From positions 1 through 42,874 of the forward strand of contig UYNY03000006.1 in assembly GCA_900620265.3 (NCBI GenBank): a stretch of 42,874 bases of DNA, given 5' to 3'. The notes under the pieces were generated by a model. The model worked only from the letters and a program-made list of their open reading frames with translations, did not search any database and was not told where the DNA came from. The stretch comes from Nitrosopumilaceae archaeon (GTDB taxonomy: Archaea > Thermoproteota > Nitrososphaeria > Nitrososphaerales > Nitrosopumilaceae). The number at the start of each line of letters is the position of its first letter. The first letter of the stretch is position 1. Shown here piece after piece: positions 4,845 to 25,445 of this stretch. Both the position numbers and the translations under genes were made by a program.

Positions 4845-4845
4845 G

Positions 4846-5415: not shown

Positions 5416-5437
5416 GCGGGGCGCCGCCGGGACTGCG

Positions 5438-5447
5438 AATATAAGGG
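5438..5447. promoter_or_regulatory. Single TATA element shared by two divergent leaderless genes
   Basis: AATATAAG and its complement CTTATATT form one element centred at about 5442. It is about 26 nt from the ATG at 5468 on the plus strand and about 27 nt from the ATG at 5415 on the minus strand. Only 52 nt separate the two start codons, and no other AT-rich element is present between them. Confidence 0.65.
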
Positions 5448-5467
5448 CATGTCGGCCCGCGCCCGGC

Positions 5468-5962: not shown

Positions 5963-6266
5963 TCCTGTTCTTGCGCCTGTACTCGTCTAGTACGGCGCCC
6001 GGGTCGAGCCCCAGCTCGATTGACGCCTGGATGACAAAGTGCCAGATGTCGATGAGCTCCTCCCTGGCGGCCTCCTCGTCGAACCGGACGGGCGCCTTCC
6101 ACCACTTCCAGCTGGTCGTGCGCTGGAGCTCGACGGCCTCGTGGATTATCGCGGTGCAGAGCGCCGAGACGCGCCCCTCTGCGCCGTCGGGGTACCTGTC
6201 GCCCGCCATGCGCGCGAACTTTTTCTGCAGCTCGAACATCTCGTCTAGCCTGTCAGGCATGCGCAT
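5931..6266 (-). CDS. dUTPase-like all-alpha nucleotide pyrophosphatase
   Basis: The 111-residue product resembles dimeric dUTPase / MazG-type all-alpha NTP pyrophosphatases, which hydrolyse dUTP or other NTPs to the monophosphate and protect DNA from misincorporation. Visible metal-binding pattern: IIHEAVELQRTTSWKWWKAP (Glu-rich helix plus the WKWWK signature of the dimeric dUTPase family, about 40-60), then EEAAREELIDIWHFVIQASI (second E..xxD helix, about 67-87). A downstream basic tail ends in KNRINVKRQQDGY. The start may be ATG at 6266 or 6260; I see no TATA box at the usual distance. The 3' end overlaps the MtrA-like gene by 32 bp. The exact substrate cannot be told from sequence. Confidence 0.85.
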   Translation of the reverse strand: MRMPDRLDEMFELQKKFARMAGDRYPDGAEGRVSALCTAIIHEAVELQRTTSWKWWKAPVRFDEEAAREELIDIWHFVIQASIELGLDPGAVLDEYRRKNRINVKRQQDGY

Positions 6267-6466
6267 GCCACCCCGTCATTGGCTGCGCAGTGCGGCCGCG
6301 CCACGTCCGCCGGCGCGCGCGCCCCGGATCCCCCGCATGTTCGGCGCGCACAGCCCCCGCCTGCGGATCAACGCGGATCGGCGCCGCCGGGACCCCGCCA
6401 ATCCCCGCCCCGGGCCGCGCCCACCTCGTCCATGTCATGGATTTCGTGCCTGTACCCCGGCGATCT

Positions 6467-6476
6467 AGTTATATAT
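6467..6476 (+). promoter_or_regulatory. Strong TATA box upstream of the giant gene
   Basis: TAGTTATATATC is the best TATA match in the 6.3-6.6 kb gap. It predicts a transcript start near 6498, right at the ATG of a 28-codon frame, and therefore a leader of about 100-190 nt before the giant gene. Confidence 0.65.
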
Positions 6477-6498
6477 CATGCCGCGGATAGCCCGGGCC

Positions 6499-6597: not shown

Positions 6598-9500
6598 ATG
6601 TACGGAGCCGGACGCGGGGAGCGCGGCGGCCCGCGCCCCGGACCAGGGGTTAGCGTGAGCGTGGTCCCCGCCCCCGGACTATCCATCATGCTCGGGCTTG
6701 CGGCCGCCCTGGTTGTGGCCGCGCTCGCCCCCGGGCTCGCGCACGCGCAGGCGCCCCCCCTCATAACAGAGGAGCCTGCCATCCCGTCGGCCGAGGAGGT
6801 GGCGAGGGCAAAGTTCGACCCCGGGTTCTATGAAAAGGTGCGGGATCTGGCAGACGGGGGCGCGCACGGGGCCAACCAGACCGATTCCAGGTATTACGGC
6901 GTGGTGATAGTGGCAAGCCGCCACGGCGGCGATCCCGGCGGCGCCGAGGGGAGCAAGGCGGCCCTGGTGGAGCGGCTCGGGCAGATGGGCGCGCTGGACA
7001 TCGTGCCGGCAGAGGAGCTCTCGTTCGTCACGGCCCGCGTGCCCGTCGGGATGATCCCGGATCTCTCGCTGATGGGCGAGGTGTACCAGCTGGGGGACGG
7101 CGAGCAGGAGCTGGATCTGGAGCCGCGGCTGGCGACTGCAAAGTCCGTCGTGCACGCGACCCCCGCGGAGATCCGCGCGGCGTCCGGGATGGCCGGGCTT
7201 GACGGCAGCGGGGTGCTGGTGGCCACGATGGAGAACATGTACCACCCGTCGGCGTTCGGCAGCCGCATAACCAAGCACATATCGTGCACGGAGAACGGCT
7301 GCACCGAGAATCCGGCGCTGCTTACCCACCGTGACAGCTGGGCCCGGCACGGGGTCCTGGTCGCGCAGATACTCGGCGCCTCCGGGTTCTCCACGTACAA
7401 CGGCATAGCGCCCGGCGTGAGCTTCATAAACATGCCCGTTGGGGCGACGGCCACCCAGCTCTCCACCTATGTCCACGCGATAGACAGGCTGGTAGGCGAG
7501 GGCGTCGACGTCATAAACATGAGCTTTGGGCGGCCGGAGAACTGCGCCCCCACCACGGTGTTCCTTGTACTGAACGAGGCGGCCGGCAGGGGCGTCGTGA
7601 TGGTGTCATCGGCCGGAAACGAGGGCAAGACGGGTGACGCGCCTAACGACCCGCCGAACTACGGCTCGATATCAAACCCCGGGTGCATGCGCAGCGTCAT
7701 CGCGGTCGGCGGCATAAACGACCAGAACCCGTCCAGCATCATACACAACCCCGGCTCGAGCAGGGGCCCCGGCAAGGATCCGAGCGGCGCCAACAACATA
7801 CTAAAGCCCGAGATCGTCGCGCCCGCGACCATATCCGGGCTGATCGGCGAGCGCGACAACCAGGACCGCAACTACATGGTCACCGGCACCAGCTTTGCCT
7901 CCCCGCTGGTGGCCGGGACGGCCGCGATCCTGCTGCAGGCCGACCCGTCCCTCACCCCCGTCGAGGTGAGGGGGGCGCTCCTGCTTGGCGCCAGGTGGAC
8001 CGGCCCCGACCAGTGCAACTCTGCCGGGTACGAGGCGGTGGATCCCGACAGCGGGTGCTCGCACGCGATGCAGGTGACAGACGGGACCCTCTCCGACGCC
8101 GAGGCCATGGGGGTGCTCAACAACATGGGGCTCGGGATACTTGATACGGCCGCCTCGGTAAGGTACGTGCTGGACGACGGGCACGTAGTCGCCGGCCAGA
8201 TAGGGGACAGCTCCGACACCCGGACGTACACGTTCACGGTCGGGGAGGCCGGCGAGCAGGTAAAGCTGATCATGACGTGGCTGGTGGACTCGCAGAACCC
8301 CTCCCAAAACCGGCTCAACACGGAGAGGATCTACGGCACGCCGAACCTGGACTTTGTGACCACGGATCCGGGCGGCGACCGGCTCGACCTGGCATCAGGC
8401 ACGTCGGCCTGGCAGAACACAGAGTTTGCCGTGTTCGACGCGCCCGAGGCCGGCACGTACACGGTGACGGTCGGCGGATCCGGCCTCGAGGCCGCCAACC
8501 AGCGCGGGCTCGGGTTTTCACTGGCAAGCACGCACCCGCTGGGCCGGGCGCCCGGGCCAGACGGCCTCCCCGAGGGGGAGGGCAGGACCGCCGTCTTCGA
8601 GCCCGGGCGCGCAACAAAGATACTTCTTGAGGCCGATGATCCGGACGGCGACCCCGTCTCGTTCCGCGTCTCCAAGGATCCCCGGAGCGGGACGCTCTCG
8701 GGGGTTATCCCCTCCGGGGATGCCTCGTACGTCGTATACGAGCAGGCCGGATCAACCCCCGACAGGTTCTCGGCCGTCCCGTACGACGGCACGGGCGAGG
8801 GCGGCCAGTTCACTGTGCGCATGGTGCCCGAGTCGCTGCCGGACGGCGCAAGATCCGACGGAGCGAGGCTGGCGCGCACAAACGGCACCGACGTGCTGGA
8901 GATCCCGGACGGGTCCGTCGGCCCCCTCTCCGTCCTGTTTCCGGGGAGGGACTATCCGGTAAAGTACGTGCAGCTGTACTCTGCAAACATGATAGAGCCC
9001 GTGGCGGAGATCCGCACGCCGGACGGCGCGTACACGGTGTCGGTCCCCGACGGGTACAGGCGGATCATACTCGAGGATCCCACCATGATATCGTCCGTCG
9101 CGATATCGGCAGGCGGGATCGACGCGGGGTTTGCGCACAGGACGGCGGGCGGCCCGGCCCGCGGGACGCACGTGTCGGTCGGATACCTGGGGGTGGCCCC
9201 GGAGAAGGAGGGGGCCCCCGAGGTATCCCCGGCCGGCCCGGACCCGCACCATGTGGCGGTCTCTGGCGGCACGTACGGGGACGTGGATCCGGGGGCGACA
9301 TGCACGGACGATGCCGGATCCACGTCATACACGAGCAACTCCAGCTCCGTCCCGCTGGACGCCCAAAAAAGGTTCACGGTGGCGTACACGTGCGCGGACG
9401 AGACCGGGTACTCGAGCAGCGCCACGCGCGTGGTAATAGTGGACGACGGGATTCCCGGAAGGCCGATCGTGGAAAGCGGCGGCCGCATAGGCGCGGGGGA

Positions 9501-12500
9501 GCAGCTGCCGGACGCCACGTGCGCGGACGTCCGGGGGGAGGGCACCAGGCTGAACGTGACCCTGCGTGACATCAACGGGCGCGCCGTGCCGCGTGCGTCC
9601 ACCGACGCGCCGGGCTCGTATGTCGCCACGTACGAGTGCCGCAACGCGGACGGCATGGCCGGCACCCCCGTCTCGCGCGACATCACGGTGGGTTTTGACG
9701 GCGGGGCGCCCCTGTACATGGATATTGCAAGGCCGGTCCGCACGGCATGCGGCGGGGAGCCGCTCCCGCCCGGCGAGGCGGCGTACGGCACGGCCGGCCT
9801 GTCAGTCTCCCTGCCGTACGACTCGGCCGACCGCGTCTCGTACATCGAGGTGCAGGCAGGCTCCACCGGACGGTCCCTTGCCATATACAACTTTACGGTG
9901 GACGGGGACCGGCTGACGGCCCTGGTGCCGCCCGGCGCGCTCGGGTTCATAACGGGGAGCATGCCGGGCGAGACGTTCTCCGCGTACGCGATAGAAAGCT
10001 CGATCTTCATAGACAGGCACCAGCTCAGTATCACGTCCGGAAGCCAGCTTGCATCCCTGGACGGAAAGCTGTTCAGGTACGTGGATCACCCGGGCGTGGG
10101 CCAGACGCAATACTCCAAGTTCGACCACATATCAGAGTATACCGCGCTTAACTCCGGCCGGCTGTATGAATTCGACGGTTCCAAGCTGGTCCAGCAGCGT
10201 GCCGTTATCTCCAATCCCGAGGTCCTCCTGGTCACATGCCACGCGCAGGTCGAGGCGCGCACGGCCGTGGACGGCCCGGATCCGCCGCCCGCAGTCGACA
10301 TATCCGGAGGATCTCCCCCGGCCATCACGGGCGCCCCGCCGGGCGGCATCATCCACTTTAGGGCCGGCGCCGCCGTGCCCTGGCACGGCATGTCGTGCAC
10401 GGACGGCGGCGTAGACGTGGCGATCACGCCGCCCCCCGGAGTCGGCGTCGACGCCGGCAGGAACGGCACCGTGGACGTCGAGTACTCGTGCACGGACGGC
10501 TCTGCCACCGACACGGAGACGATAACCTACCTGGTCGACGGCACGCCTCCCGTGGTGGCCCCGCCGGGCGGATCCGCCGACATCGAGGTGGGCGACGCGT
10601 TCTCGCCGGTCGCGGGGTCGTGCCGCGACCCGTACCCGGATCCGGCATCCTACGACGGGATCAACGAACCCTCTGCGGCGCGCTCCGGGCACAGCGAGGG
10701 CGACGTGAGGGGCGCGCTGGAGGGCAGGTCGCTCGGCACGTTCGTCACCATATTCGAGTGCGAGGACGCGGCCGGCAACGTGGCAAGATCGACGCTGACG
10801 CGCAACGTGGTGGATACGCGGGTCCCGAACCCGCCCACGGTGTCAAGGACCGAGGTGACCTCCACGGCCCCCGAGCCGATAGACTACGGCGACGTATCCT
10901 GCGACCCCGGGGACACGGGCACGCCGCTCCGGCTTGTAAACGACACCACCCGGGACGGCCTCACGTACGCGGGCGCGATAGACCCGTCCGTCCCCGGGAC
11001 GTACGTGGTCTCATACATGTGCGCCGACGCCAGCCAGAGCAGCAGTCCCGTGGTACAGACCGTCTCCGTGGAGCCCGGCGCCGCGGGGGCCGGACCCCCG
11101 GAGCTCGCCGGCGGCCCCCCGGACGGCCAGATCCACTTCAAGCGGGGTGACCCGGTCCCCGCACACGGCCTGACGTGCCGCGCCGGCGGCCTGGACCTGA
11201 CGTCCACGATCGCCCCCAACGCCACCGTCGACAAGGACGTCCAGGGCATGGTGCCGGTAAAGTACACGTGCACCCACGCGGGAGAGAGCGCCGAGCGGAC
11301 CGTCACGTATGTCGTGGACGGGACGGCCCCCGAGCTCGTGGCCACGAGGGTGCACTCGGGGAACCTGGAAAACCCGCACAAGATCCGCTTTGACCTGCAC
11401 GGGCACTTTGACGCCGAGATCGTGGGCTGCGTGGACGAGTATCCCGCCGCCAACCTGGATCACGAGGTGGTGAGGGACGGCGAGGACGCGATCCGGGAGG
11501 CATACGCGACCAAGACGGAGATCCTGGGCGCCGTCGTCACGTACAACTGCATGGACAGGGCCGGCAACAAGGCGGCCGAGGGGCGCTCCATCTTCGACGT
11601 GATTGACAGGCGGCCCCCCGGGAAGCCGAGCGTGTCGCCGCTGGAGATAGACTCCACGGAGGGCGAGGACGTGGACCTCGGCGACGCGGCCTGCACGCAG
11701 GACGGGGGCTCCAGGGTGCACGTCAGGAGCAACACCTACAGGGACGGGATGGAGATCTTCAGGCCCGGATTCCACGGCACGTCCGGCCCGTACGTCGACG
11801 TATCCGTCCCCGGCACGTACGAGGTCAGGTACTGGTGCGCCGACGCGCGCCACTCCAGCGGCGTCGTGACCCAGACGGTCACCATAAACCCGAGGCCGGT
11901 CCTGCTGTCCGGGCAGCCGGCCGGCCCGATCCGCCTGAAGGTGGGGGACGCCGTGCCCGCCCACGGGATCACGTGCACGGACCTGTCCGCGAACCCGGGG
12001 GAGGCACCGGAGACCGTCGACGGCGCCGTCGACCCGGACATGAACGGGACGCAGTACGTGACGTACCGGTGCGCCGATGACGGCGGGCGCGCCGAGGACG
12101 TCCGCGTCACGTACATAGTGGACGGGACCCCGCCCGTGATATCGGTGCCCGGGGCCTCGGTGCTGGAGCTCGGCTCCGAGTTCGAGCCGGAGGGCGCGAC
12201 GTGCACGGACCCGTACCCGCGGGAGAGGATAGGCGCGGCGGCCAGGACGGGCGAGGACGCCGTCAGGGCGGCGCTCGCGTCCGGCATGGAGCACCCCGGC
12301 GGCATCACCGTCACCTACACGTGCACCGACGCGGTCGGCAACGACGCCACCGCCAAGACGGCGTTCACGGTGCTGGACAGGACGCCCCCCGCCGAGCCGG
12401 ACCTGGATACCAGGAGCGTCGTGTCCGTTGCCGGCCGCATGATAGACTATGGGGCATCATGCGCGCAGGACGGGGGCACGCCCGTCATCCTGGGGAACAT

Positions 12501-15500
12501 GACGTACAAGGGGGACGAGGTGATCGGCAGGATCGACGCGTCCGAACCGGGATCCTACCGCGTCGACTATGTGTGCGCGGACTCGAAGCACAGGAGCAAC
12601 ACCGTGATGCAGCACGTGACCATACTGGCGGGCGGCGGGGCATCCGACTTTTCGGCACCGCCGGCCACCGGGGTGTATGTCCGGAACGCCTCCCACTACG
12701 ACCCGGGGGACGTGTGCGGCACGCCGGTAACGTACATGCCGGCGCTCAAGGGGCTCGAGGACGGCAGGCACCAGGTGGTGGCGTCGTGCGGCGCGGACGA
12801 CGCGCGCGTGGAGATCATAGTGGACAGCAGGCCGCCGGACATATCGCTGGACGGCGGCGGGACGCACTATCTCATGCCGGTGATGGGCGGGACGTACCTT
12901 GATGCGGATCCGGGGTACGAGTGCACCGACGAGCCGCCCGGCATCGTGGACACCCACGGCTCGGACGCGGGGGACCACCCGATATCGGCCAACGGCACGT
13001 TCGAGGTGTCATACACGTGCAGGGACGCGGCGGGCAACGTGAGGAACGAGACGCGCGACGTGGAGGTGGACGGCGGGAGGCCCGCGCCCCCGGCCGTTGA
13101 CGGCACGGACTCCACATACCGGATCGAGGTCGGCACGGCGTTCGCGCCGCCGGAGATGCGGTGCGTGCAGGACGGCGGGTCCCCCGTGCACCCCGCGGCA
13201 AGGCTGGCGTTCTACGACGGGGCCGGCGCGCGGATACCGGGGATCAGCGGATCCGCGCCGGTGGGCAGCTATGAGATGGATGCCTGGTGCGAGGACGCGG
13301 CGGGCAACAGGAGCTACGTGCTGGACCACTTTGTGGTGACGGTGGAGCCGCCCGCCCCGGTGCGCTCCGACGACGCCGTCTCGCTGCTCGAGGGCGGGGG
13401 CGACGCGCACGTCATGACCGTCTCCGAGTACAGGCACACCCTCGTCTGCAGGCCGGACGGCACAAACCCCGACAACAGCAGGCTGCTCTTCGACCCGCCG
13501 CTTGACATGCTGCGGGAGAACCATGCCAACAGGGTCAACGCGTCCTGCCCTGACCCGCAGAACAGGGTGGGCGACTCGTCCACGAAGGAGGTCACGATCA
13601 CGCTGGACACGCACGGGCCGGTGGTGTCGGTCCCGGCCGTCTACGCGCGCAAGACCGTGATCTACGTCTGGGACGGCAACCAGAACACGGCGTGGTCGGC
13701 CATACAGCCGAGGTTCAGGTGCGTGGACGCCCTGGACACGGATCCGGTGAGGTCCACGTCGTTCGAGCGAGAGCGGGTCGACCACCTGGACCACCTTGAC
13801 GAGCTGACACCCCACGTGATCGCCGACCACGTGGACGAGGACGGCAACGCGCACTTTGACGTCTTTACCATAACGTGCGAGGACGCGGCGGGCAACGAGC
13901 TGGTACAAAAGTACCCGGTGGTCCAGGACAGGAGGCTGAACCCGTTCGCGGATGTAGGCGGGACCGTGGCGCCCGTCATCAGCATCGAGAAGATGGTGCG
14001 CGAGGTGCCGTTCGGGTCGAGCTACACGTTCACCGACGAGGACCGGCGCTGCGGGGACTATACGCCGCACCAGATGGGGGACATCACGTACCACGCCTTC
14101 CTCCGGGGCCTGCAGGACGTCAGGCACCTCTGCGCCGACTCGGTCGGCTTTGGCAGGTACTCGATGACGCAGGTCTTCGTGCCGTTCCTGAACGGCCCCG
14201 CCATCACCATCCACCAGCCCGAGTTCGCGGTGAAGAGGGGCGATCAGATCCCGATCGACGGCATCGCCAGCTGCGTGGACAGCGGCGGCAGCCCGCTGCC
14301 CGTCACCATAGACGACAACTATTTCAAGTTCTTCTCGGTAAACTCGCCGGTAAAGTTCAAGCCCAGCAAGGCGTTCTCCTACGGGCTCAACGAGTGGCCG
14401 ATCCACGTCGTCTATACGTGCACGGACAGCATCGGCAGGCTGGCGGCCGCGTCGGCCGAGTTCGTCCAGGTCGCCTCGACCCCGCAGATAGGGCTGACGG
14501 GGATCACGAAGGAGAACAGGCGCGAGACGCTCGAGTCCGCGTTCAGGAACGCCCACATCGCAGGAACCGCCTATGAGGACCCCGGGGCCGACTGCTACTA
14601 CCACTTTGACGACCCGCCGGACCGCCCCATAACGGCCACCGAGAACGTGCCGGACGAGGACACAAGGCCGGGGACGCTGCTGAGGGTCGGGTATGTCTGC
14701 ACCTCGGACGACGGCGAGGAGACCACCAAGAGGCACAGGGTCGTAAAGGTGCTCGAGCGCAAGGTGATCGAGTTTGACAGCGGCTCGCCCGTCCACGAGG
14801 GCGGCGCGCCGCTCAGGGACGACGCAAGGTGCCTCGGCTTTGCGGGCCCGGTGGAGACGCCGGCCCCGGTGATAACGGGGCCCGATGGAGCGGTCGATCA
14901 GATAGGGATCTCGACGCCGGCCGGCACGTACACGCTGACCTACACGTGCACGGACACCCCGTTTGACCACGAGGGACTCGGCTCGCAGTCGCAGAGCAGG
15001 ACGTTCACCAGGGAGCTCCGGGTGACGGAGACGCCGGACACCCCGGTGATACTGCTTGACGGGCCGGATCCGGTCGCGGTCGTGCCCGGCAAGGTCTTTG
15101 AGGAGCCCGGCTACTCGTGCATGGACAGGCCCGGCGGGGAGAACGTCACGGCGTCCGTCACAACCAACGGGACCGGCTATGTCATGGGGTTCATGGACAC
15201 GGTAGTAAGATATGACTGCGAGGACGGGGACGGCAACCCCGCAAGGACCGTCTACAGGACGCTGCTGGCAGACCGCACCCCGCAGATAACCATAGGGGAG
15301 GTGCTGCCGGTAGAGAAGAAGTCCCTGGGGGCCAACCTGCCGACGGCCACCTGCACGCTCTTCGGGGGGGAGACGGTCGAGCTGGCGCCAAAGATGAAGG
15401 GCATCAAGTCCCGCACCACCAAGATAGGGGACCACAGGGTCGTGATAAGCCCGACGTACGAGGACAACTACGGGCTGCCGTTTGACGCCCCGACCAGGAC

Positions 15501-18500
15501 GCACACCATCACGTTCACGTGCACGTCCGGCGGCCTGACCGGCAGGGCGTCGGCCGAGTTCATCCAGGTGAACCCCAACCCGAGCATAAACGTGCCGGGG
15601 CTCCTGCGCACCAGCCTGGGCGAGACTGCCAGGTCGCAGCTGGCCAACCTGCGCCTGGCCGGGGACGAGTACTCGCACGACGGCGTACAGTGCCGCTATT
15701 ACAAGGAGCCGGGGCTGCTGTCAGTCGGCGACCCGGGGTTCGAGGTCACGGGCTCCGTGGGGACGGCCCCCGGCGTCTACAACATCACGTACACGTGCAG
15801 CCCGGAGAGCGCCGGGGAGAGGTCCCGCTCCGCCCCGCGCACGGTGTCCGTGCTGGAGAGGGCGGTCCCGGCGGTCACGGGCGCCGAGGATGTCACGCAC
15901 ACCGGCCCCGCCCCGTTCGCCGACACGGTGGGGTGCTCTGGGATATTCGGCGACTCGGAACTGCGCCCCGACATACCGGAGCCCGTCCTGTCCAGCAACA
16001 TAACGAGGGGCGGCGAGCTGGTGGACCGGGTGGCGGAGGAAGGCGTTTATGAGATCACCTACAGGTGCACAGAGTCGTACCTCGGCAGGGTCTTTGCGTC
16101 GGAGACGGCTGCCAGGACCGTGAAGGTGCCAGGATCCACGATCACCCCGCCGCCCCCGGGGCCCGTCCTCACCCTGGGCGCCCCCGAGGTCCACCTGAAG
16201 CCTCGCGACACGCACAAGCCCCCCCTCGAGTGCACGCTGGATGGCGCCGCGGTCAACGCCGACATCATGTCCAACGATACTAGCATCAGCAGGATCATAG
16301 ACGGCGTGCAGAACGTCACGGCGCCGGACGAGGAGGGCGCATACGGCGTAAAGTACACGTGCACGTCCGGCGGCCAGACGGCGGACAACATGCCAGAGTT
16401 CAGGGTGGTATCTGACGGCACCGGGCCGGCCGTGGCGGTCAACGCCTCGCTCCCGGTGGTATCCGGCCAGGTGCTGGCCCCGACGGACTTTCCGATCTCA
16501 AAGGTATACGCGTGCGTCGACACGTACGACCCGTCCCCGACCATGGAGGCCAACGGGCAGGGCGGCTCGTACATGTCGGGCGGCTTTGTCCCCGGCGACC
16601 AGTTCATACCGAACACCGAGGCGCTGGTCTTTGCGTCTATCCGCTGCACCGACGAGGCAGGCAACGTAGGCGAGGGGACCGCGTCGTACACCACCCGGCC
16701 CCCTCCCATCACCATGGGCATCGGCGGCTCGCCGGCCTACCTGATGCCGGGTGCGACGCACGACCCGCAGGTCACCTGCACCGTCGGCTCTGATCAGCTG
16801 ACGGACATGATAACGTCAAGCAGCCCCATCAGCGTGGTAGTGGACGGCAAGCACCAGATAACTGCCCCGGACACCGACGCCGATGACACCACCATAACCT
16901 ACACGTGCGCTAGGGACGGCCTGGCCACCCAGACGAGGACGTTCCGGGTGGTTACGGACGGCATCGGGCCGGCGCCGCCCACCGCACCCGGCGGCATAGA
17001 CATTGACTTTGGCACCGCGTATGATCCGGACGACAACAACGTCCGGTGCGCCAGCGACTCGGGCTCGCCGGTCCTGCCCGACGCCGAGTTCAAAATCTTT
17101 GACTCTGACGACAACGAGGTGGCGGCCATCACCACCACGACGCCGGCCGGCACGTACGACGTCAACTATACGTGCGTCGACGAGGCCGGGAACGCCGGCC
17201 CGGCGGCCACCCAGGTCGTGACGATACGCGACACGTCGGCGCCGTCCGGCCCGGCCACGGCGCTCGTCGGGACGGCCCCGGACGCCTACACCGACACGCC
17301 CGCCGGCTATGTCCACGGGCTCACCTGCGAGGAGGACGGCGTGGCAGTCGGCAATGACCGCATACTGTTTAACCCGCCGCTTGCGAACCTGGCCGAGAAC
17401 GCGAACAACACCGTCACGATCTACTGCCCCGACACGCAGGGGCTGACGTCAAGGGCGTCCAACCAGACGGTCCACATCATATATGACACCGAGGACCCGG
17501 AGATCCACTACGGCCGGGAGCTCGCGCTGCTTGATGACACCATCGGGCTGGTCGCGGGCGAGTCGCTGGCAGACCACGTCCGCTGCACGGACAACCTGGA
17601 CGCGGACCCCGCCGCAGAGTACTCTGATGACAACCTCGTCTCCTACAAGGCGCTCGGCGAGTTTGACGCGTCGTCGCCGCACACGGCCCGCGACATCGAC
17701 TTCCGCTGCGTCGACAGGGCGGGCAACGACCCGACGGACCAGGACTTTCCGGACCCGGCCTCGCTGCTAAAGTACGTGCGCACCGTAAAGGTGTACCCGG
17801 CGGAGCTGGGCATAGCCCGCGGTACGGACGGGGACGGGGCCCGGTACGGCGAGACCCTCTACTACAAGCGGGGCGCGGCGCTGCCCGGCGGCCTTGCGGT
17901 CTGCGGCGACGGCACCCTGGAATACTCCGTGGACGGCTCCGGGCCGTACAGGGGCGGCACCGACGGCAGGTACGTGCTGGACCTTGCGTGCACCGACGAG
18001 CTTGGCCGCGGGTCCGATACCGTCCGGTATGTCGTCTACGTGGACGGCGTGCCGCCGGCGCCCCCGACCGGGGTCGTGCCGGCGCACTCCCTTGATGTCG
18101 GCGAGGAGTTCGTGCCGCGCGCGGCGCGCGGCGCCGCCGCGTGCGAAAAGGCCGTGGATCCAGAGTCACCCGTGGTCCTGGCCAACGTGACGCTGGATAG
18201 CGGCGGCGCGGTGGCCGCGATCGACACCCTGAGCGAGGGATCCTATAGGATCAACTATACGTGCGTGGACGGGGCGGAGAACCGCAGCCCGCCGGTCACG
18301 CAGGCCGTCACGGTCAAGGCGGCGCCCGGGCGGGGCTCGGACCCCGAGATCACCGGCACGGGGGTGATCCACTTCAGGCAGGGCACCACGCCCGAGCCGC
18401 ACGGCCTGACGTGCTCGGACGGAGACGCCGACCTGACGTCCACGATCACAGGCGACATCACGGTCGACGAGAACACGCAGGATGGAAACGCCACCGTCAC

Positions 18501-21500
18501 GTACACGTGCACCGACGAGCGCGAGTCAAAGACCGATACACACAAGATAACCTACATAGTCGACGGGACGCCGCCGGTCATCTCGCCGCCGACGGGCACC
18601 GTCACGCTGGAGCTCGGCGAGACGTTCACCCCCGAGGACCCCACGTGTACCGACCCGTACCCGCGGGCCGAGATTACCCAGATAGACAGGGCCGGCCGCC
18701 CCGCCGTCGAGGCCGCGCTCCTCTCAAAGGCAGAGTCCGAACCGGAGATCACCTACGACTGCGAGGATGCAGTCGGCAACCCGGCCATCCAGTCGGTCCG
18801 CACGTTCGAGATCCGCGACACGACGGCGCCCGCGGCACCCGTCGTCTCCCGCGCGACCGTCACGGTGGCAGAGGGCGCCATGCTGGATCTCGGGGTCGTC
18901 GCGTGCACACAGGATGACGGGACGCCGGTCTCGCTCCGGAATGTCACCACGCTGGACAACAACCCCCACACGGGCCCCATAGACACGTCCGTGCCGGGCA
19001 CCTACGTGGTCACGTACACGTGCAATGATGCCAAACTTGCCAGCGAGCCGGCCCAGCAGACCGTCACAGTCGACCCCGCGCCGGGCAGGGGCGCCGACCC
19101 CGAGATCACCGGCGTGGATGTCATCCACTTCAGGCAGGGGACGGCGCCAGAGCCGCACGGCCTGACGTGCTCGGACGGAGACGCCGACCTGACGTCCACC
19201 ATCACCGCCGACAGGGTGGTCGACTCAGCCACCCCGACCGGCAACGCCACCGTCACGTACACCTGCACCGACGAGCGGGAGTCAAAGACCGACACGCACA
19301 AGATAATCTACATCGTGGATGGGACCGCCCCGGTGATATCCCCGCCGACGGGCACCGTGCAGCTGGAGCTCGGCGGGACGTTCTCCCCCGAGGACCCCAC
19401 CTGCACCGACCCGTATCCAGAGGCAAAGCTCGAGGTGGCCCGGGCCGGCCGCCCCGCCGTCGAGGCCGCGCTCCTCTCAAAGGCAGAGTCCGAACCGGAG
19501 ATCACCTACGACTGCGAGGATGCAGTCGGCAACCCGGCCATCCAGTCGGTCCGCACGTTCGAGATCCGCGACACGACGGCGCCCGCGGCACCCGTCGTCT
19601 CCCGCGCGACCGTCACGGTGGCAGAGGGCGCCATGCTGGATCTCGGGGTCGTCGCGTGCACACAGGATGACGGGACGCCGGTCTCGCTCCGGAATGTCAC
19701 CACGCTGGACAACAACCCCCACACGGGCCCCATAGACACGTCCGTGCCGGGCACCTACGTGGTCACGTACACGTGCAATGATGCCAAACTTGCCAGCGAG
19801 CCGGCCCAGCAGACCGTCACAGTCGACCCCGCGCCGGGCAGGGGCGCCGACCCCGAGATCACCGGCACGGGGGTGATCCACTTCAGGCAGGGCACCACGC
19901 CCGAGCCGCACGGCCTTGCCTGCACGGACGGCGGCGTGGATCTGACATCCACCATTACCGCTGACAGGACGGTCGACGACACCACTCAGACGGGCAACGC
20001 CACCGTCACGTACACCTGCACCGACGAGCGCGAGTCAAAGACGGTGACCCACAAGATAATCTACATAGTCGATGGTACGGCCCCGGTGATATCCCCGCCG
20101 ACGGGCACCGTGCAGCTAGAGCTCGGCGGGACGTTCGAGCCAGAGATGGTCACCTGCACCGACCCGTACCCGCGGGCCGAGATCGCGAAGATCGACAGGG
20201 ATGGCCGCGATGCCGTCGAGGCGGCACTCTCCTCCAAGGCAGAGTCCGACCCGGTGATCACATACGACTGCGACGACGCCGTCGGCAACCCCGCAACCCA
20301 GTCTGTCCGCACGTTCGAGATACGCGACACGACGGCGCCCGCGGCACCCGTCGTCTCCCGCGCGACCGTCACGGTGGCAGAGGACGCGATACCCGACCTA
20401 GGCGATGTCACGTGCGCTCAGGATCGCGGCACGCTGGTCTCGCTCCAGAATGTCACCACGCTGGATAACAACCCGCACGCCGGCCCAATCGACACATCGA
20501 GGCCCGGCACCTACGAGATAACCTACACGTGCCACGACGCCAAGCAGGCCGGCGAGCCGGCCGTGCAGACGGTCACCGTCGAGGCGGCGCCCGGCAGGGG
20601 CGCCGACCCCGAGATCACCGGCAGGGAAGTAATCCACTTCAGGCAGGGCACGGCACCGGATGCACACGGCCTGACGTGCGCCGACGGCTCCGTCGACCTG
20701 ACCGGGACGATCACCGGCGATATCACGGTCGACGAGAACACGCAGACGGGCAACGTCACAGTAACCTACACGTGCACCGACGAGCGCGAGTCAAAGACGG
20801 CAACCCACAAGATAACCTACATCGTGGACGGGACGGTCCCCGTCATATCCCCGCAGACGGGCACCATCCAGCTGGAGCTGGGCGAGACGTTCACGCCCGA
20901 GATAGTCACCTGCACCGACCCGTACCCCCGGGCCGCCATCTCCAATATAGAGAGGGCCGGCCGCGATATCGTCGAGGCGGCACTCTCCTCCAACTCAGAG
21001 TCCGAACCGGAGATCACCTACGACTGTACCGACGCAGTCGGCAACCCCGCCGTCCAATCCGTCCGCACCTTTGAGATACGCGACACGACCCGGCCCGTCA
21101 TCACGTTCTCGCACGATATAAGGGAGGTAGAGTTCAGAGGCGCGTACGAAGAGCCGGCCGCCACGTGTACCGACCTGCCGCGTCCCGCCAGCAGTGCGAT
21201 CCCCAACACCGGCGAGACAGTCGACACGGGCGCGGCCGGCACCTACACGGAGTCCTATACATGCGACGACGGGATAACAGGCCCGGTCACCGTCACACGC
21301 GCCGTGGTCGTGAACGCCGCCCTCAACACGCCCCCCGAGATACTGCTCAACTATATGAACAACTCGAACGTCGAGGTGGGGACGGACCCGACGGCCACCT
21401 GCAGGGACGCCGAGGACGGCGACAGCCCCGCCGCGCGCACGGGCGGGGAGGGCTTTGACGTCGACGACGGCACGTTCGGCTTTGCCGAGGACTCTCGCGC

Positions 21501-24500
21501 AAAGCCCTACACGTTCACGTACACGTGCACCGATACCGGCGGCCTGACAAACTCGACTACCGGCGTGATCACCCAGGTCAGCGACGTCCCGCACCTTGCC
21601 ATCACGGCGTTCGACTATAACGCCGACGGCAAGATGACCTTTGCCGCCCTGGTCGACACGTTCCACCGCCTGAACAACGACTATACCCAGGAGGATCCAA
21701 AGTGCTACCACCACTCCGTCGGCGAGATCCAGCGCGACACGGAATACATACCGGAGATAAGCGACAAAGTCAAGGAGGCCATCAGGGACGATCTGGGCCC
21801 GCACGACGTCACCCACACCTGCACGGTCGACGGCAGGTCCAACACGCTGGTCCACACCGTCTATACCATCTCTAGGGACCTGCCTGCCATCACCATCCGC
21901 CCCGGCCCGGAGGCGATCCACGCGCTCGGCGATATATTCGAGCCCCTCTCAACGTGCTCGCCGCTCTTTGGCGACGACCTGCCGCTTGAGCCCTCCATAG
22001 TGGACGTGGACGGCACGGAGGTCGGCGCGATCGACGAGTCGACCCCGAGGGGCAAGTACGTGATCACCTACTCTTGCACCCAGACCATAGAGGAGACTGA
22101 CCACCACGAGCGCGTCACGATCGAGGCCGCCGCCGCCATGCTCACGGTCGACGTGACAGAGCGGATAAAGCCCAGGCTGGTTGTGCCCAACGACAGGATC
22201 GTCCACCCGCTCGGCGAGGCCCTTGATCTTGCGGCCATCGGCGTCACGTGCGCCGACGGCGAGGGATCCGCCACGCTGGAGCACGACCCGCCGATCACCG
22301 CATCGACCCCGCCCGACGCGATAGACGTGGCAGTCACGTGCACCGACGAGTCGGGCAACTATGTGAGGAGGACGGTCGAGGTCGTCATAACCGACATGGA
22401 CACGCCGCTGATCACGCTGCTCGGGGATCCGGTGATCACGTCCGAGGGCCACCTCTTCCGCGACCCGGGCGCCTCGTGCACCGACGTGCAAGACGGCCGG
22501 CTCGGCGTCACGACCGAGACAACGCGCTACGGCACGGACGGCGCAGCCGAGATCGGCGAGCCGGGCAGGTACGAGATGACCTACCACTGCACCGACTCTG
22601 ACGGCAACAAGGCAGAGCCGGTCACGCGGACCGTCCACGTCGGCAGGGTCGGCGACGCCCTGCCCCCGGTGATCAGCATCAACGGCTTCTCCACCACCAT
22701 GATAGAGACCGGCGATGCGTATCTTGACGGGGGTGCCGTCTGCAGCGACGCCAACTATGGGGACCTGCCCGTCGTGGTGCGCGAGGAGGTCGACGCGGCA
22801 AGGCCGGGCTCGTATTCCGTCACCTACACGTGCACCGACGGCACGTTCACCAGTACGGCCAAGAGGACCGTCGACGTGGTGGCCGAGGTGCCCGAGGATG
22901 TCACGCCCCCCGAGATCCGGATACCTAGCGGGTTCGAGGAGTTTGCCGCCATGGATACCGGCTCTACGCAGACGGCCGGCCCCGTGGGCGCGCTGCCCCC
23001 GCCCGGATCCACGGCGGCGGGCGGCGCGACGGGCATCATCGATCCTGCCGGCAACGCCACGTTCGCGCCCGCGCCGTCTCCCGGCGGTGCCGCCTCGTCG
23101 CATGCAGACCGCCTGCCGCACCGCCAGGGGACAGAGTTCGTGCCCCCGATACTCTGGTGCGTCGACGGGATCAACTATGCCGGCGAGGAGATACGTACGG
23201 CGTCAAACTCGTCACACATGATCACCACGTCAACGGCCGCCGGGCATGAAGAGGTCACATACACGTGCAAGGACGCGGCGGGCAACATCGCGACGCAGGT
23301 CGTCCTGCGGGTAGAGGTCGAGGAGGAGGGGCGCCCGGCGGCCGCCTCGCTGCACGGATCCAGGACCATCTCGCTGGAGCCCGGCCAGGTATACAGGGAG
23401 GAGGGCGCGATGTGCGATGACGGCAGGTTCAACAGGCCCGACCGCCAGCTGCTGCCGGTCATCCAGCCCGGCAGCGACAACCCGGCCGAGTTCTCAAAGC
23501 CCGGCAGGTACGAGATAAACTACGCGTGCGAGGCGGCCGGTACCATGTCGGGGATCATCACCCGGATCATCATCGTAAAGCCCGGCGGGTCCAGCGAGGA
23601 GGACTGGCAGCTGAACCCCACGTTCGGGCTCTCGTGGCTTGACAACACGCAGGCCGTCCGCGGCGGGTTCTCGTTTGATGGCAGGTACGTTGACGTGACG
23701 GACAACTTCCACGCATCGTTCGCAAGGATCGACGCGGCCGTCGGCGAGGAGCACGTCGTCACGGCAAAGGCATATTCAGAGCGGGACCTTGAGCGGTTCA
23801 CCATATACCTGGGCGTGCCGGACGTCTCGCGCGCGACGGACGCCGAGGCCGAGATCGCCATAGATGTCACCCCGGATAGCGCGGCAGAGTCGTGGTACTC
23901 CATACTGGGCACCTCCCACGAGCAGGAGGACCCGCTGGTTGACGTGGACCACACCCGGGCGGAGATACGCAGGGTGGCCTGCAGCCCCGGCTCTGATATC
24001 AAGTGCCTCGAGGTCGAGGTGGCGTTCCGCGTCATGGCGCCGCTCTCGTCCGATATAATGGCGATATCGGCGATGGATACGGAGCGCCGCGTCACCGTCA
24101 CCTATGTGAACGACGGGGTGACGTTCACCGGCGACTCGCTGCTCCCGCCAAGGACCGCCTCGTTCACCTTCCGGGCCGGCAACCAGCATCCGGCGGAGGA
24201 GGTCCACCTGGTGCAAAAGGACCGCAGGTACAACGTCTGGGAGGACCAGCACGGGTTCGCCTGGCTGCAGAACCAGTACGGCTCGTGGACGCAGGTCACG
24301 CATGCGGAGTTTGAGCGCCTGGCAGATCCTGCCGTCTCGGTGGTGACGCGCCACCACGACTCGTTCGCCGATCTTCTGCGCGCGGAGCAGGAGCGCGCGG
24401 CACTAGTATTCAACGCGACGGACCTGCAGCGCGAGGTCGGCGGGTCGTTCAGCCACGACGCCCCCGTCCGGGTTGAAAAGCTAAAGGATCCGGCGATCCT

Positions 24501-24555
24501 CGAGCGGCTCCACATATCGGAGCTTGCCGCCCTCGAGTACCTGGGCCGGCCCTAG
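6598..24555 (+). CDS. Giant secreted subtilase-like protein with Cys-paired Ig-like repeats
   Basis: Up to 5,985 residues. A Gly/Arg-rich stretch precedes a signal sequence (MLGLAAALVVAALAPGLAHA, from ATG 6688, which may be the true start). Residues about 195-455 form an S8 subtilase-like domain: His251 in RHGVLVAQILGA, the oxyanion Asn341 in VSSAGNEG and Ser432 in GTSFASPLVAG are present, but the catalytic Asp position reads Glu212 (VLVATMENMYHP). A beta domain (about 538-645, RTYTFTVGEAGEQ to GTYTVTV) resembles a pre-peptidase C-terminal domain. Then about 5,000 residues of DUF5011/HYR-like Ig modules follow, typically VDGTPPVIS...CTDPYP...ITYTCTDAVGN, each with two Cys, probably disulfides. 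Residues about 5,670-5,985 are a non-repeated C-terminal domain (NPTFGLSWLDN, EDQHGFAWLQNQYGSW). No C-terminal membrane anchor is seen. A surface or secreted adhesin/protease is inferred. It shares CTAG with pfkB-like at its 3' end. Confidence 0.88.
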   Translation: MYGAGRGERGGPRPGPGVSVSVVPAPGLSIMLGLAAALVVAALAPGLAHAQAPPLITEEPAIPSAEEVARAKFDPGFYEKVRDLADGGAHGANQTDSRYYGVVIVASRHGGDPGGAEGSKAALVERLGQMGALDIVPAEELSFVTARVPVGMIPDLSLMGEVYQLGDGEQELDLEPRLATAKSVVHATPAEIRAASGMAGLDGSGVLVATMENMYHPSAFGSRITKHISCTENGCTENPALLTHRDSWARHGVLVAQILGASGFSTYNGIAPGVSFINMPVGATATQLSTYVHAIDRLVGEGVDVINMSFGRPENCAPTTVFLVLNEAAGRGVVMVSSAGNEGKTGDAPNDPPNYGSISNPGCMRSVIAVGGINDQNPSSIIHNPGSSRGPGKDPSGANNILKPEIVAPATISGLIGERDNQDRNYMVTGTSFASPLVAGTAAILLQADPSLTPVEVRGALLLGARWTGPDQCNSAGYEAVDPDSGCSHAMQVTDGTLSDAEAMGVLNNMGLGILDTAASVRYVLDDGHVVAGQIGDSSDTRTYTFTVGEAGEQVKLIMTWLVDSQNPSQNRLNTERIYGTPNLDFVTTDPGGDRLDLASGTSAWQNTEFAVFDAPEAGTYTVTVGGSGLEAANQRGLGFSLASTHPLGRAPGPDGLPEGEGRTAVFEPGRATKILLEADDPDGDPVSFRVSKDPRSGTLSGVIPSGDASYVVYEQAGSTPDRFSAVPYDGTGEGGQFTVRMVPESLPDGARSDGARLARTNGTDVLEIPDGSVGPLSVLFPGRDYPVKYVQLYSANMIEPVAEIRTPDGAYTVSVPDGYRRIILEDPTMISSVAISAGGIDAGFAHRTAGGPARGTHVSVGYLGVAPEKEGAPEVSPAGPDPHHVAVSGGTYGDVDPGATCTDDAGSTSYTSNSSSVPLDAQKRFTVAYTCADETGYSSSATRVVIVDDGIPGRPIVESGGRIGAGEQLPDATCADVRGEGTRLNVTLRDINGRAVPRASTDAPGSYVATYECRNADGMAGTPVSRDITVGFDGGAPLYMDIARPVRTACGGEPLPPGEAAYGTAGLSVSLPYDSADRVSYIEVQAGSTGRSLAIYNFTVDGDRLTALVPPGALGFITGSMPGETFSAYAIESSIFIDRHQLSITSGSQLASLDGKLFRYVDHPGVGQTQYSKFDHISEYTALNSGRLYEFDGSKLVQQRAVISNPEVLLVTCHAQVEARTAVDGPDPPPAVDISGGSPPAITGAPPGGIIHFRAGAAVPWHGMSCTDGGVDVAITPPPGVGVDAGRNGTVDVEYSCTDGSATDTETITYLVDGTPPVVAPPGGSADIEVGDAFSPVAGSCRDPYPDPASYDGINEPSAARSGHSEGDVRGALEGRSLGTFVTIFECEDAAGNVARSTLTRNVVDTRVPNPPTVSRTEVTSTAPEPIDYGDVSCDPGDTGTPLRLVNDTTRDGLTYAGAIDPSVPGTYVVSYMCADASQSSSPVVQTVSVEPGAAGAGPPELAGGPPDGQIHFKRGDPVPAHGLTCRAGGLDLTSTIAPNATVDKDVQGMVPVKYTCTHAGESAERTVTYVVDGTAPELVATRVHSGNLENPHKIRFDLHGHFDAEIVGCVDEYPAANLDHEVVRDGEDAIREAYATKTEILGAVVTYNCMDRAGNKAAEGRSIFDVIDRRPPGKPSVSPLEIDSTEGEDVDLGDAACTQDGGSRVHVRSNTYRDGMEIFRPGFHGTSGPYVDVSVPGTYEVRYWCADARHSSGVVTQTVTINPRPVLLSGQPAGPIRLKVGDAVPAHGITCTDLSANPGEAPETVDGAVDPDMNGTQYVTYRCADDGGRAEDVRVTYIVDGTPPVISVPGASVLELGSEFEPEGATCTDPYPRERIGAAARTGEDAVRAALASGMEHPGGITVTYTCTDAVGNDATAKTAFTVLDRTPPAEPDLDTRSVVSVAGRMIDYGASCAQDGGTPVILGNMTYKGDEVIGRIDASEPGSYRVDYVCADSKHRSNTVMQHVTILAGGGASDFSAPPATGVYVRNASHYDPGDVCGTPVTYMPALKGLEDGRHQVVASCGADDARVEIIVDSRPPDISLDGGGTHYLMPVMGGTYLDADPGYECTDEPPGIVDTHGSDAGDHPISANGTFEVSYTCRDAAGNVRNETRDVEVDGGRPAPPAVDGTDSTYRIEVGTAFAPPEMRCVQDGGSPVHPAARLAFYDGAGARIPGISGSAPVGSYEMDAWCEDAAGNRSYVLDHFVVTVEPPAPVRSDDAVSLLEGGGDAHVMTVSEYRHTLVCRPDGTNPDNSRLLFDPPLDMLRENHANRVNASCPDPQNRVGDSSTKEVTITLDTHGPVVSVPAVYARKTVIYVWDGNQNTAWSAIQPRFRCVDALDTDPVRSTSFERERVDHLDHLDELTPHVIADHVDEDGNAHFDVFTITCEDAAGNELVQKYPVVQDRRLNPFADVGGTVAPVISIEKMVREVPFGSSYTFTDEDRRCGDYTPHQMGDITYHAFLRGLQDVRHLCADSVGFGRYSMTQVFVPFLNGPAITIHQPEFAVKRGDQIPIDGIASCVDSGGSPLPVTIDDNYFKFFSVNSPVKFKPSKAFSYGLNEWPIHVVYTCTDSIGRLAAASAEFVQVASTPQIGLTGITKENRRETLESAFRNAHIAGTAYEDPGADCYYHFDDPPDRPITATENVPDEDTRPGTLLRVGYVCTSDDGEETTKRHRVVKVLERKVIEFDSGSPVHEGGAPLRDDARCLGFAGPVETPAPVITGPDGAVDQIGISTPAGTYTLTYTCTDTPFDHEGLGSQSQSRTFTRELRVTETPDTPVILLDGPDPVAVVPGKVFEEPGYSCMDRPGGENVTASVTTNGTGYVMGFMDTVVRYDCEDGDGNPARTVYRTLLADRTPQITIGEVLPVEKKSLGANLPTATCTLFGGETVELAPKMKGIKSRTTKIGDHRVVISPTYEDNYGLPFDAPTRTHTITFTCTSGGLTGRASAEFIQVNPNPSINVPGLLRTSLGETARSQLANLRLAGDEYSHDGVQCRYYKEPGLLSVGDPGFEVTGSVGTAPGVYNITYTCSPESAGERSRSAPRTVSVLERAVPAVTGAEDVTHTGPAPFADTVGCSGIFGDSELRPDIPEPVLSSNITRGGELVDRVAEEGVYEITYRCTESYLGRVFASETAARTVKVPGSTITPPPPGPVLTLGAPEVHLKPRDTHKPPLECTLDGAAVNADIMSNDTSISRIIDGVQNVTAPDEEGAYGVKYTCTSGGQTADNMPEFRVVSDGTGPAVAVNASLPVVSGQVLAPTDFPISKVYACVDTYDPSPTMEANGQGGSYMSGGFVPGDQFIPNTEALVFASIRCTDEAGNVGEGTASYTTRPPPITMGIGGSPAYLMPGATHDPQVTCTVGSDQLTDMITSSSPISVVVDGKHQITAPDTDADDTTITYTCARDGLATQTRTFRVVTDGIGPAPPTAPGGIDIDFGTAYDPDDNNVRCASDSGSPVLPDAEFKIFDSDDNEVAAITTTTPAGTYDVNYTCVDEAGNAGPAATQVVTIRDTSAPSGPATALVGTAPDAYTDTPAGYVHGLTCEEDGVAVGNDRILFNPPLANLAENANNTVTIYCPDTQGLTSRASNQTVHIIYDTEDPEIHYGRELALLDDTIGLVAGESLADHVRCTDNLDADPAAEYSDDNLVSYKALGEFDASSPHTARDIDFRCVDRAGNDPTDQDFPDPASLLKYVRTVKVYPAELGIARGTDGDGARYGETLYYKRGAALPGGLAVCGDGTLEYSVDGSGPYRGGTDGRYVLDLACTDELGRGSDTVRYVVYVDGVPPAPPTGVVPAHSLDVGEEFVPRAARGAAACEKAVDPESPVVLANVTLDSGGAVAAIDTLSEGSYRINYTCVDGAENRSPPVTQAVTVKAAPGRGSDPEITGTGVIHFRQGTTPEPHGLTCSDGDADLTSTITGDITVDENTQDGNATVTYTCTDERESKTDTHKITYIVDGTPPVISPPTGTVTLELGETFTPEDPTCTDPYPRAEITQIDRAGRPAVEAALLSKAESEPEITYDCEDAVGNPAIQSVRTFEIRDTTAPAAPVVSRATVTVAEGAMLDLGVVACTQDDGTPVSLRNVTTLDNNPHTGPIDTSVPGTYVVTYTCNDAKLASEPAQQTVTVDPAPGRGADPEITGVDVIHFRQGTAPEPHGLTCSDGDADLTSTITADRVVDSATPTGNATVTYTCTDERESKTDTHKIIYIVDGTAPVISPPTGTVQLELGGTFSPEDPTCTDPYPEAKLEVARAGRPAVEAALLSKAESEPEITYDCEDAVGNPAIQSVRTFEIRDTTAPAAPVVSRATVTVAEGAMLDLGVVACTQDDGTPVSLRNVTTLDNNPHTGPIDTSVPGTYVVTYTCNDAKLASEPAQQTVTVDPAPGRGADPEITGTGVIHFRQGTTPEPHGLACTDGGVDLTSTITADRTVDDTTQTGNATVTYTCTDERESKTVTHKIIYIVDGTAPVISPPTGTVQLELGGTFEPEMVTCTDPYPRAEIAKIDRDGRDAVEAALSSKAESDPVITYDCDDAVGNPATQSVRTFEIRDTTAPAAPVVSRATVTVAEDAIPDLGDVTCAQDRGTLVSLQNVTTLDNNPHAGPIDTSRPGTYEITYTCHDAKQAGEPAVQTVTVEAAPGRGADPEITGREVIHFRQGTAPDAHGLTCADGSVDLTGTITGDITVDENTQTGNVTVTYTCTDERESKTATHKITYIVDGTVPVISPQTGTIQLELGETFTPEIVTCTDPYPRAAISNIERAGRDIVEAALSSNSESEPEITYDCTDAVGNPAVQSVRTFEIRDTTRPVITFSHDIREVEFRGAYEEPAATCTDLPRPASSAIPNTGETVDTGAAGTYTESYTCDDGITGPVTVTRAVVVNAALNTPPEILLNYMNNSNVEVGTDPTATCRDAEDGDSPAARTGGEGFDVDDGTFGFAEDSRAKPYTFTYTCTDTGGLTNSTTGVITQVSDVPHLAITAFDYNADGKMTFAALVDTFHRLNNDYTQEDPKCYHHSVGEIQRDTEYIPEISDKVKEAIRDDLGPHDVTHTCTVDGRSNTLVHTVYTISRDLPAITIRPGPEAIHALGDIFEPLSTCSPLFGDDLPLEPSIVDVDGTEVGAIDESTPRGKYVITYSCTQTIEETDHHERVTIEAAAAMLTVDVTERIKPRLVVPNDRIVHPLGEALDLAAIGVTCADGEGSATLEHDPPITASTPPDAIDVAVTCTDESGNYVRRTVEVVITDMDTPLITLLGDPVITSEGHLFRDPGASCTDVQDGRLGVTTETTRYGTDGAAEIGEPGRYEMTYHCTDSDGNKAEPVTRTVHVGRVGDALPPVISINGFSTTMIETGDAYLDGGAVCSDANYGDLPVVVREEVDAARPGSYSVTYTCTDGTFTSTAKRTVDVVAEVPEDVTPPEIRIPSGFEEFAAMDTGSTQTAGPVGALPPPGSTAAGGATGIIDPAGNATFAPAPSPGGAASSHADRLPHRQGTEFVPPILWCVDGINYAGEEIRTASNSSHMITTSTAAGHEEVTYTCKDAAGNIATQVVLRVEVEEEGRPAAASLHGSRTISLEPGQVYREEGAMCDDGRFNRPDRQLLPVIQPGSDNPAEFSKPGRYEINYACEAAGTMSGIITRIIIVKPGGSSEEDWQLNPTFGLSWLDNTQAVRGGFSFDGRYVDVTDNFHASFARIDAAVGEEHVVTAKAYSERDLERFTIYLGVPDVSRATDAEAEIAIDVTPDSAAESWYSILGTSHEQEDPLVDVDHTRAEIRRVACSPGSDIKCLEVEVAFRVMAPLSSDIMAISAMDTERRVTVTYVNDGVTFTGDSLLPPRTASFTFRAGNQHPAEEVHLVQKDRRYNVWEDQHGFAWLQNQYGSWTQVTHAEFERLADPAVSVVTRHHDSFADLLRAEQERAALVFNATDLQREVGGSFSHDAPVRVEKLKDPAILERLHISELAALEYLGRP
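10291..12633 (+). repeat. Three diverged copies of a ~260-residue super-module in the giant gene
   Basis: Within the giant protein (residues about 1,232-2,012) three long modules follow each other with heads at about 10342 (GGIIHFRAGAAVPWHGMSC), 11122 (GQIHFKRGDPVPAHGLTC) and 11926 (GPIRLKVGDAVPAHGITC). Each continues through VDGTxPxx, a CxDPYP or CxDEYP block and a PPxxPxVS linker. They are the diverged relatives of the near-identical array at 18.3-21.1 kb. Confidence 0.75.
18689..19113 (+). repeat. 425-bp exact direct repeat, copy A
   Basis: Compared base by base with copy B at 19442-19866 (offset 753 bp), this stretch shows no difference. It spans the second half of super-repeat 1 and the head of super-repeat 2. 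Confidence 0.9.
19442..19866 (+). repeat. 425-bp exact direct repeat, copy B
   Basis: Identical to copy A at 18689-19113. Just downstream (to about 19915) it matches the head of unit 1 (18341-18406) rather than unit 2, a mosaic expected from unequal crossing over or gene conversion. Confidence 0.9.
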
Positions 24556-25445
24556 AACCTGCACGCGCGCGCGTACCTGCGGAACCTGGCGTCCGCGTCG
24601 CGCCTGCGTATCCTCAGCAGCCCGTCGAGCCCGTACCCCTCGACGGCGAACGACCCCATCACGTTCCCGTACGCGGCCGCCCGCCTCATCGTCGCCAGGC
24701 TGGTCGACCCCCTGCCCGCCATGTACCCCATCATCGCGCCGGCAAACGAGTCCCCCGCGCCGGTCGGGTCCACCACCCTGTCGAGCATGACGCCGGGCGC
24801 CGGGTACGCCTCGTCCCCGTGGAAGAGGATCGAGCCGTGCTCGGCCTTTTTTATCACCACGTACTTTGGACCCCACTTCATTATCCGCCTTGCGCACCCC
24901 TGCAGGTTGTGCTCGCCCGTCAGCAGCCTTGCCTCCTCGTCGTTGATCACCGCCGCGTCGACGGCGCCCATCAGCCTCGTGACCGACCTCCTCTTGTTCT
25001 TTATCCAATAGTCGATGGTATCGCACATCGAGAACCTGACCCGGTCGAACTTGCCGATGATCCGCAGGTTCTGGTCCGGGTCGTTGTTCGCAAGGTACAC
25101 GAACCGGGCCCCCCTGTACGACTCGGGCACCTTTGGCCTGAACGTGCCGAGCACGTTCAGCTCGACCTTTACCGTCGTCCTCGTCTTGAGGTTCCTGCTA
25201 TACCTGCCGTCGTACCTGAACGTCCTGCCGTCGGCCACCTCGAGCCCCGCAAGGTCCATCCGCTCGGACATCATCCTGATGTGCCTGCTTGGAAAGTCCC
25301 GCCCCGTCACCGCTATGAGCCCCGTCCTTGCAAAGTTGCTCGACGATATGGCGGCAAAGACGGCGGCGCCCCCCAGCACGCCCCTCAGCGTCCTCCTCGG
25401 GGTCCTTATCGTGTCAAGCGAGGCGGACCCAAACACCACCAGCAT
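24552..25445 (-). CDS. PfkB/ribokinase-family sugar kinase
   Basis: A 297-residue kinase of the ribokinase fold that phosphorylates a sugar or nucleoside hydroxyl with ATP; the substrate cannot be told. The N-terminus MLVVFGSASLDTIRTP and the glycine-rich LGGAAVFAAISSS bind substrate, VINDEEARLLTGE matches the central PfkB segment, and the anion-hole/catalytic motif DPTGAGDSFAGAMMGYMAG carries the catalytic Asp near residue 237. The ATG at 25445 lies 27 nt downstream of a TATA box (GTATAAATT, 25468-25476) that sits inside the last codons of the upstream gene. The stop codon shares the palindrome CTAG with the giant gene converging from the left. Confidence 0.92.
   Translation of the reverse strand: MLVVFGSASLDTIRTPRRTLRGVLGGAAVFAAISSSNFARTGLIAVTGRDFPSRHIRMMSERMDLAGLEVADGRTFRYDGRYSRNLKTRTTVKVELNVLGTFRPKVPESYRGARFVYLANNDPDQNLRIIGKFDRVRFSMCDTIDYWIKNKRRSVTRLMGAVDAAVINDEEARLLTGEHNLQGCARRIMKWGPKYVVIKKAEHGSILFHGDEAYPAPGVMLDRVVDPTGAGDSFAGAMMGYMAGRGSTSLATMRRAAAYGNVMGSFAVEGYGLDGLLRIRRRDADARFRRYARACRF

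Follow-up and report, generated by a model that had tools for sequence, protein, structure and literature searches.

A giant archaeal protein with a subtilase-like head, 52 cysteine-paired Ig-like modules and a shared C-terminal domain

Introduction

Surface proteins that carry Ig-like domains in tandem have been described from several prokaryotes. They include the S-layer protein Sap of Bacillus anthracis, the S-layer of Deinococcus radiodurans (PMC10120038) and exported proteins whose modules match the DUF5011-type profile PF16403, and GhpA, the grappling hook protein of Aureispira, is a further giant bacterial surface protein. Few archaeal proteins exceed 5000 residues (PMC11573180). In sponge-associated Thaumarchaeota S8 peptidases and serpins are expanded and often adjacent, DUF5011-type Ig domains occur and GC content is raised (PMC6790972, PMC6697440, PMC7848895). 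Secreted S8 subtilases and Ig-like/HYR proteins are on record for Candidatus Nitrosospongia ianthellae and for further ammonia oxidizers among sponge archaea, which have the same expanded S8 peptidases, serpins and DUF5011-type Ig domains; the available portion of the account describes no S8–Ig fusion of ~6000 residues, no Cys-paired modules and no shared tail domain (PMC6790972).

Here we describe a giant protein encoded in a window of 42,874 nucleotides, which is the entire contig 6 of a draft Nitrosopumilaceae genome (2.0 Mb in 113 contigs). The protein is an extreme form of the known Ig-array surface proteins. Like the PF16403 proteins it combines a match to the module profile with a tandem array on an exported protein, but it differs in having two cysteines at apparently facing core positions in each module, 52 modules, and superunits of three modules. 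With Sap and the Deinococcus S-layer it has in common tandem Ig-like domains on a prokaryote surface, whereas the protease-like head, the far longer array and the single Cys pair in each module set it apart. Cadherins resemble it through fold matches to their tandem ectodomains and as extracellular beta-sandwich rods; in the giant, however, stiffening would come from disulfides, and the only PDB entry that matches the modules in sequence is a bacillolysin Ig domain. GhpA, fragments of which match the module fold, comes from a different organism and has a different head, so that the likeness is limited to that fold.

The giant reading frame

A first-pass annotation of the window had proposed an uninterrupted frame of about 18 kb coding for an exported protein, and both parts of this description hold. 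The gene (Table 1) is a single frame of 5985 codons without a stop, which at the base composition of the window would arise by chance with a probability of about 2.5e-59, and its GC3 stays at 86–94% from end to end. The calculated mass of the product is 630 kDa and its pI is 4.5. A hydrophobicity profile places the core of a signal peptide at approximately residues 31–50 and, over the whole protein, shows no hydrophobic segment besides it. Judged from the sequence, the true start may be Met31 (position 6688), where the hydrophobic signal sequence begins, and cleavage probably follows AHA50.

Table 1. Positions in the window of the features of the giant gene and its flanks.
Feature	Position	Strand	Basis or remark
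dUTPase_2-like gene, left flank	5931..6266	-	adjoins PfkB gene directly in relatives
AT-rich TATA-like stretch tagttatatat	6467..6477	+	~130 nt upstream of first ATG; candidate archaeal promoter, noted by eye
Giant open reading frame	6598..24555	+	translation; 5985 aa
Signal peptide region, residues 1-50	6598..6747	+	hydrophobicity and translation
Propeptide-like region, residues ~60-190	6775..7167	+	conserved among S8 paralogs (alignment)
Subtilase-like (S8) catalytic domain, residues ~196-465	7183..7992	+	Glu212, His251, Asn341, Ser432; alignment
PPC-like domain, residues 540-626	8215..8475	+	weak, below Pfam cut-off
Ig-like modules 1-2, residues 869-1035	9202..9702	+	Cys pairs 902/932 and 975/1014
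Inserted region without Ig modules, residues 1036-1242 (~200 residues)	9703..10323	+	Cys1051 and Cys1214; matches no family
Ig-like modules 3-52, residues 1243-5663	10324..23586	+	one Cys pair each
Recently duplicated three-module superunits	18337..21123	+	~252 aa, 753-756 nt
Low-complexity Gly/Pro/Ala/Thr linker, modules 50/51	22870..23112	+	translation
C-terminal domain, ~336 residues	23545..24552	+	Cys 5795 and 5803 conserved; 13 near-full genome copies
PfkB-family kinase gene, right flank	24552..25445	-	tail to tail with giant gene, 4-bp overlap

The Ig-like array

Between residues 869 and 5663 we count 52 Ig-like modules with a median period of 86 residues and an identity of only ~20%, in agreement with the roughly 5,000 residues of Ig-like repeats first proposed. 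When the protein was searched in five pieces, four exceeded the curated cut-off of 27 bits for PF16403 (Bact_surface_Ig-like), scoring 54–143 bits, and matches to this profile run along the array with E values down to 2e-42. The HYR profile (PF02494) gave no match in the giant at E 0.01, and of the DUF5011/HYR plan suggested for the modules only the DUF5011-type part is retained. A sister protein is the only one that the HYR profile does match. The two cysteines of the insert between modules 2 and 3 might form a pair of their own.

An AlphaFold2 model of three consecutive modules was obtained from sequences of the window only, using an alignment of non-overlapping module triples. It has a mean pLDDT of 93.2 and a pTM of 0.69, predicts an Ig-like beta-sandwich fold for the modules and places the cysteines on or in strands. 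Sap is its top match among solved folds, and a chitinase with Ig domains, internalin K, cadherins and GhpA are also among the best; a viral fold search returned only generic Ig-fold matches from phages and giant viruses. The Ig fold suspected at first is thus supported by confident prediction and by Ig- and cadherin-type PDB matches, while the angles between modules, and with them the length of the rod, are uncertain in the model because of the pTM of 0.69.

Within residues ~3914–4842 the superunits comprise three full copies and a fourth with two modules, and nowhere is the assembly less certain than in their copy number. We consider it unlikely that the length and module number of the giant are wrong because such near-identical units were collapsed or multiplied, or because separate genes were joined. 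Identity of up to 99% over 300 nt between superunits would favour an artefact of this kind, as would a window that is one full contig of a fragmented draft and contig ends that cut several sister genes; however, the 18-kb frame is intact with uniform GC3, modules outside residues ~3900–4850 are too divergent for easy misassembly, and Ig arrays with the same tail are present in H13 and G159, two related genomes. Since two other proteins of this genome, encoded on contigs C23 and C56, likewise combine an S8 domain with Ig modules and the tail, the architecture does not appear to be chimeric.

Paired cysteines

Two cysteines at fixed places in each module had been noted at the outset, and all 52 modules of the giant do contain one pair each. 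The two residues are 24–56 positions apart, and in 39 modules the second is preceded at a distance of two residues by Tyr. A Y-x-C motif is typical of the F strand of animal Ig domains, in which the canonical disulfide joins the B strand to the F strand.

To test the pairing without bias, we ran a module profile with both Cys columns masked against the frames of the present genome and of sixteen related ones. Among modules outside the giant 156 have both cysteines, 116 have neither and 8 have one, which indicates that the residues are gained or lost as a pair. Fisher's test for co-occurrence gives p ~1e-68, a value inflated by the modules being tandem copies in related genomes, and the pattern by genome is the safer statement. 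Five genomes (H13, G159, G175, G179 and G010) contain paired modules only and nine (G101, G051, G080, G107, G243, G246, G092, G207 and G148) unpaired modules only, while G152 and G268, each with few modules, contain both kinds. In two of the eight one-sided modules a second Cys is present at a displaced site. In Cys-free modules both positions are mostly occupied by small residues (Ala/Val and Thr/Ser), as expected of positions that face each other in a core.

We predict that each module very probably contains one internal disulfide. That the cysteines instead bind metal, or cross-link neighbouring modules or molecules with no disulfide inside the module, is highly improbable: there are just two of them, both at strand positions within a single compact module, they come and go together within a module, and regular additional Cys ligands are absent. 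The genome encodes three DsbA-like thioredoxins, and a search of it for a VKOR homolog as disulfide oxidase found none. If the pairs do represent disulfides, a surface protein of an archaeon would have arrived by convergence at the disulfide of animal Ig domains, and an all-or-none switch between related genomes would make the gain of this disulfide open to direct study.

Two further giants were seen in the course of these searches. A 3896-residue frame of G101 (L114, 1397–13084, minus strand) has no more than two cysteines for its 24 related Ig modules, and is a giant array without disulfides. On contig C82 of the present genome a second giant of at least 3103 residues (L089, 3–9311, minus strand), with 29 Cys-paired Ig modules, ends at the contig edge.

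The subtilase-like head

The head is, by sequence, a subtilase homolog: residues 236–465 match Peptidase_S8 (PF00082) with E 1.6e-33 and PDB subtilases match it with E 3e-18. The S8-like assignment first given is sound in this respect, but it does not extend to an intact active site. Alignment with paralogs and relatives shows that His251, Asn341 and Ser432 are retained and that the Asp-His-Ser triad is incomplete, with Glu212 at the catalytic Asp position. Protease activity is doubtful, because this Asp is replaced while the paralogs keep it.

An active extracellular protease is a possibility to which we give rather little weight. Glu212 would do the work of the Asp, and the Ig array would tether a digestive enzyme close to the cell for mixotrophic use of sponge peptides. 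The three retained residues and the propeptide-like region are conserved, the genome has nine S8 matches, and both secreted subtilases and amino-acid uptake are expanded in archaea of sponges (PMC6790972). Glu at this position is nevertheless confined to the giant among these proteins, as seven S8 paralogs of the genome and the G175 relative have Asp, and for secreted digestion a stalk that approaches 5000 residues is not needed. Of two G010 relatives one has Asn at the position.

The C-terminal domain

The C-terminal domain had been called unique, a description that does not survive comparison with other genes and genomes. This genome alone contains 14 matches including the giant, 13 of them near full length, in frames of 651–5985 residues, and the domain lies at the extreme C-terminus of every full copy; one of the 13, on contig C36, has a divergent end. 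Of 250 genomes of the family Nitrosopumilaceae searched with a profile, 81 contain the domain, often in frames of 300–700 residues. Its two cysteines are invariant in 18 aligned sequences. Pfam, NCBIfam and the PDB gave no convincing match, and a model from the window and H13 sequences reached a pLDDT of 39, with no usable fold.

The constant terminal position, the sharing of the domain and the absence of a membrane segment lead us to favour, with some reserve, a role in attaching the protein to the surface. This so far unnamed domain offers a testable handle on protein attachment at the surface of ammonia-oxidizing archaea. A broken copy on contig C110 (L063, 133–396, minus strand), with an in-frame TGA and TAG, suggests turnover in the gene family.

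Probable sponge setting and proposed role

Genome searches place the organism in the same genus as Nitrosopumilus sp. H13, a sponge-derived MAG, and the nearest relative comes from a Hexadella sponge (PMC6697440). Genome G158 of the searched set shows the same match coordinates as the contig of H13 and the same frame of 2040 aa. The genome has 14 serpin matches in addition to the S8 matches and a GC content of ~67%, and serpin genes share contigs C21, C22, C32, C56 and C94 with S8 genes, often within a few kb. Since the serpins, the S8 peptidases, the GC content and the link to H13 match published traits of sponge symbionts, the organism is probably sponge-associated, by analogy with those genomes; the initial suggestion of a symbiotic or marine thaumarchaeon agrees with this.

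The reading we prefer, if by a modest measure, is a secreted, disulfide-pinned stalk of ~200 nm that is held by its tail at the cell surface and shows its protease-like head to a sponge host. Ig domains are about 4 nm long. The signal peptide would translocate the protein, and its 52 modules would fold extracellularly, with a single disulfide between the B and F strands pinning each of them. Fully extended, the array would form a stalk that resists proteases and measures roughly 200 nm (52 x ~4 nm). The C-terminal domain, having no membrane segment, would keep the protein attached at or within the S-layer, and would serve the twelve sister proteins that share it in the same way. At the far end the head might cleave or, given the Asp-to-Glu change, more likely mainly bind peptide or host matrix. 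The gene would have been added at a conserved locus, as part of an enlarged surface set of protease, serpin and Ig-like proteins of sponge-associated ammonia-oxidizing archaea. Contact with the host is the part on which we are evenly divided. More speculative, and in our view rather doubtful, is the wider proposal that the canonical Ig disulfide arose independently in some archaea associated with sponges, which used it to build a family of giant protease-proof stalks, with one tail dock and varied heads, as a dedicated system of contact with animal hosts.

The giant could also be an ordinary variant protein associated with the surface layer, with no host role and an array length set by neutral drift through repeat duplication, which we think is less probable than not by a clear distance. 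Other family members also have the tail domain and Ig-array proteins that lack the Cys pairs and reach 3896 residues, and the superunits are recent duplicates. Drift of this kind is harder to reconcile with the Cys pair that every module keeps despite strong divergence, with the count of Ig-module candidates, the highest of 250 genomes searched (253 first-look candidates; next 212), and with the gain of an entire gene at a conserved site.

That site can be followed through the relatives. All ten that were examined have the PfkB kinase gene, and nine have the left-flank genes immediately beside it, with the giant absent; in the tenth, G051, the stretch examined did not contain the left flank. 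H13 has such an empty site, with the flanking genes and no giant between them. As the flanking genes are direct neighbours in nine relatives, this lineage, that of a probable animal symbiont, has probably acquired the 18-kb gene, and loss from all other relatives is less likely.

Other neighbours in the window (transcription termination factor FttA, a proteasome subunit, DUF7482, an aminoacyl-tRNA synthetase and tRNA-Val) fit an archaeon. A plus-strand ORF at 5959–6468 was considered as the left neighbour and rejected, as the relatives show that it lies antisense to the dUTPase_2 gene. Beside the dUTPase-like gene, at 5414–5962 on the plus strand, this thaumarchaeal genome also encodes an MtrA-like protein (PF04208), which is kept in the relatives.
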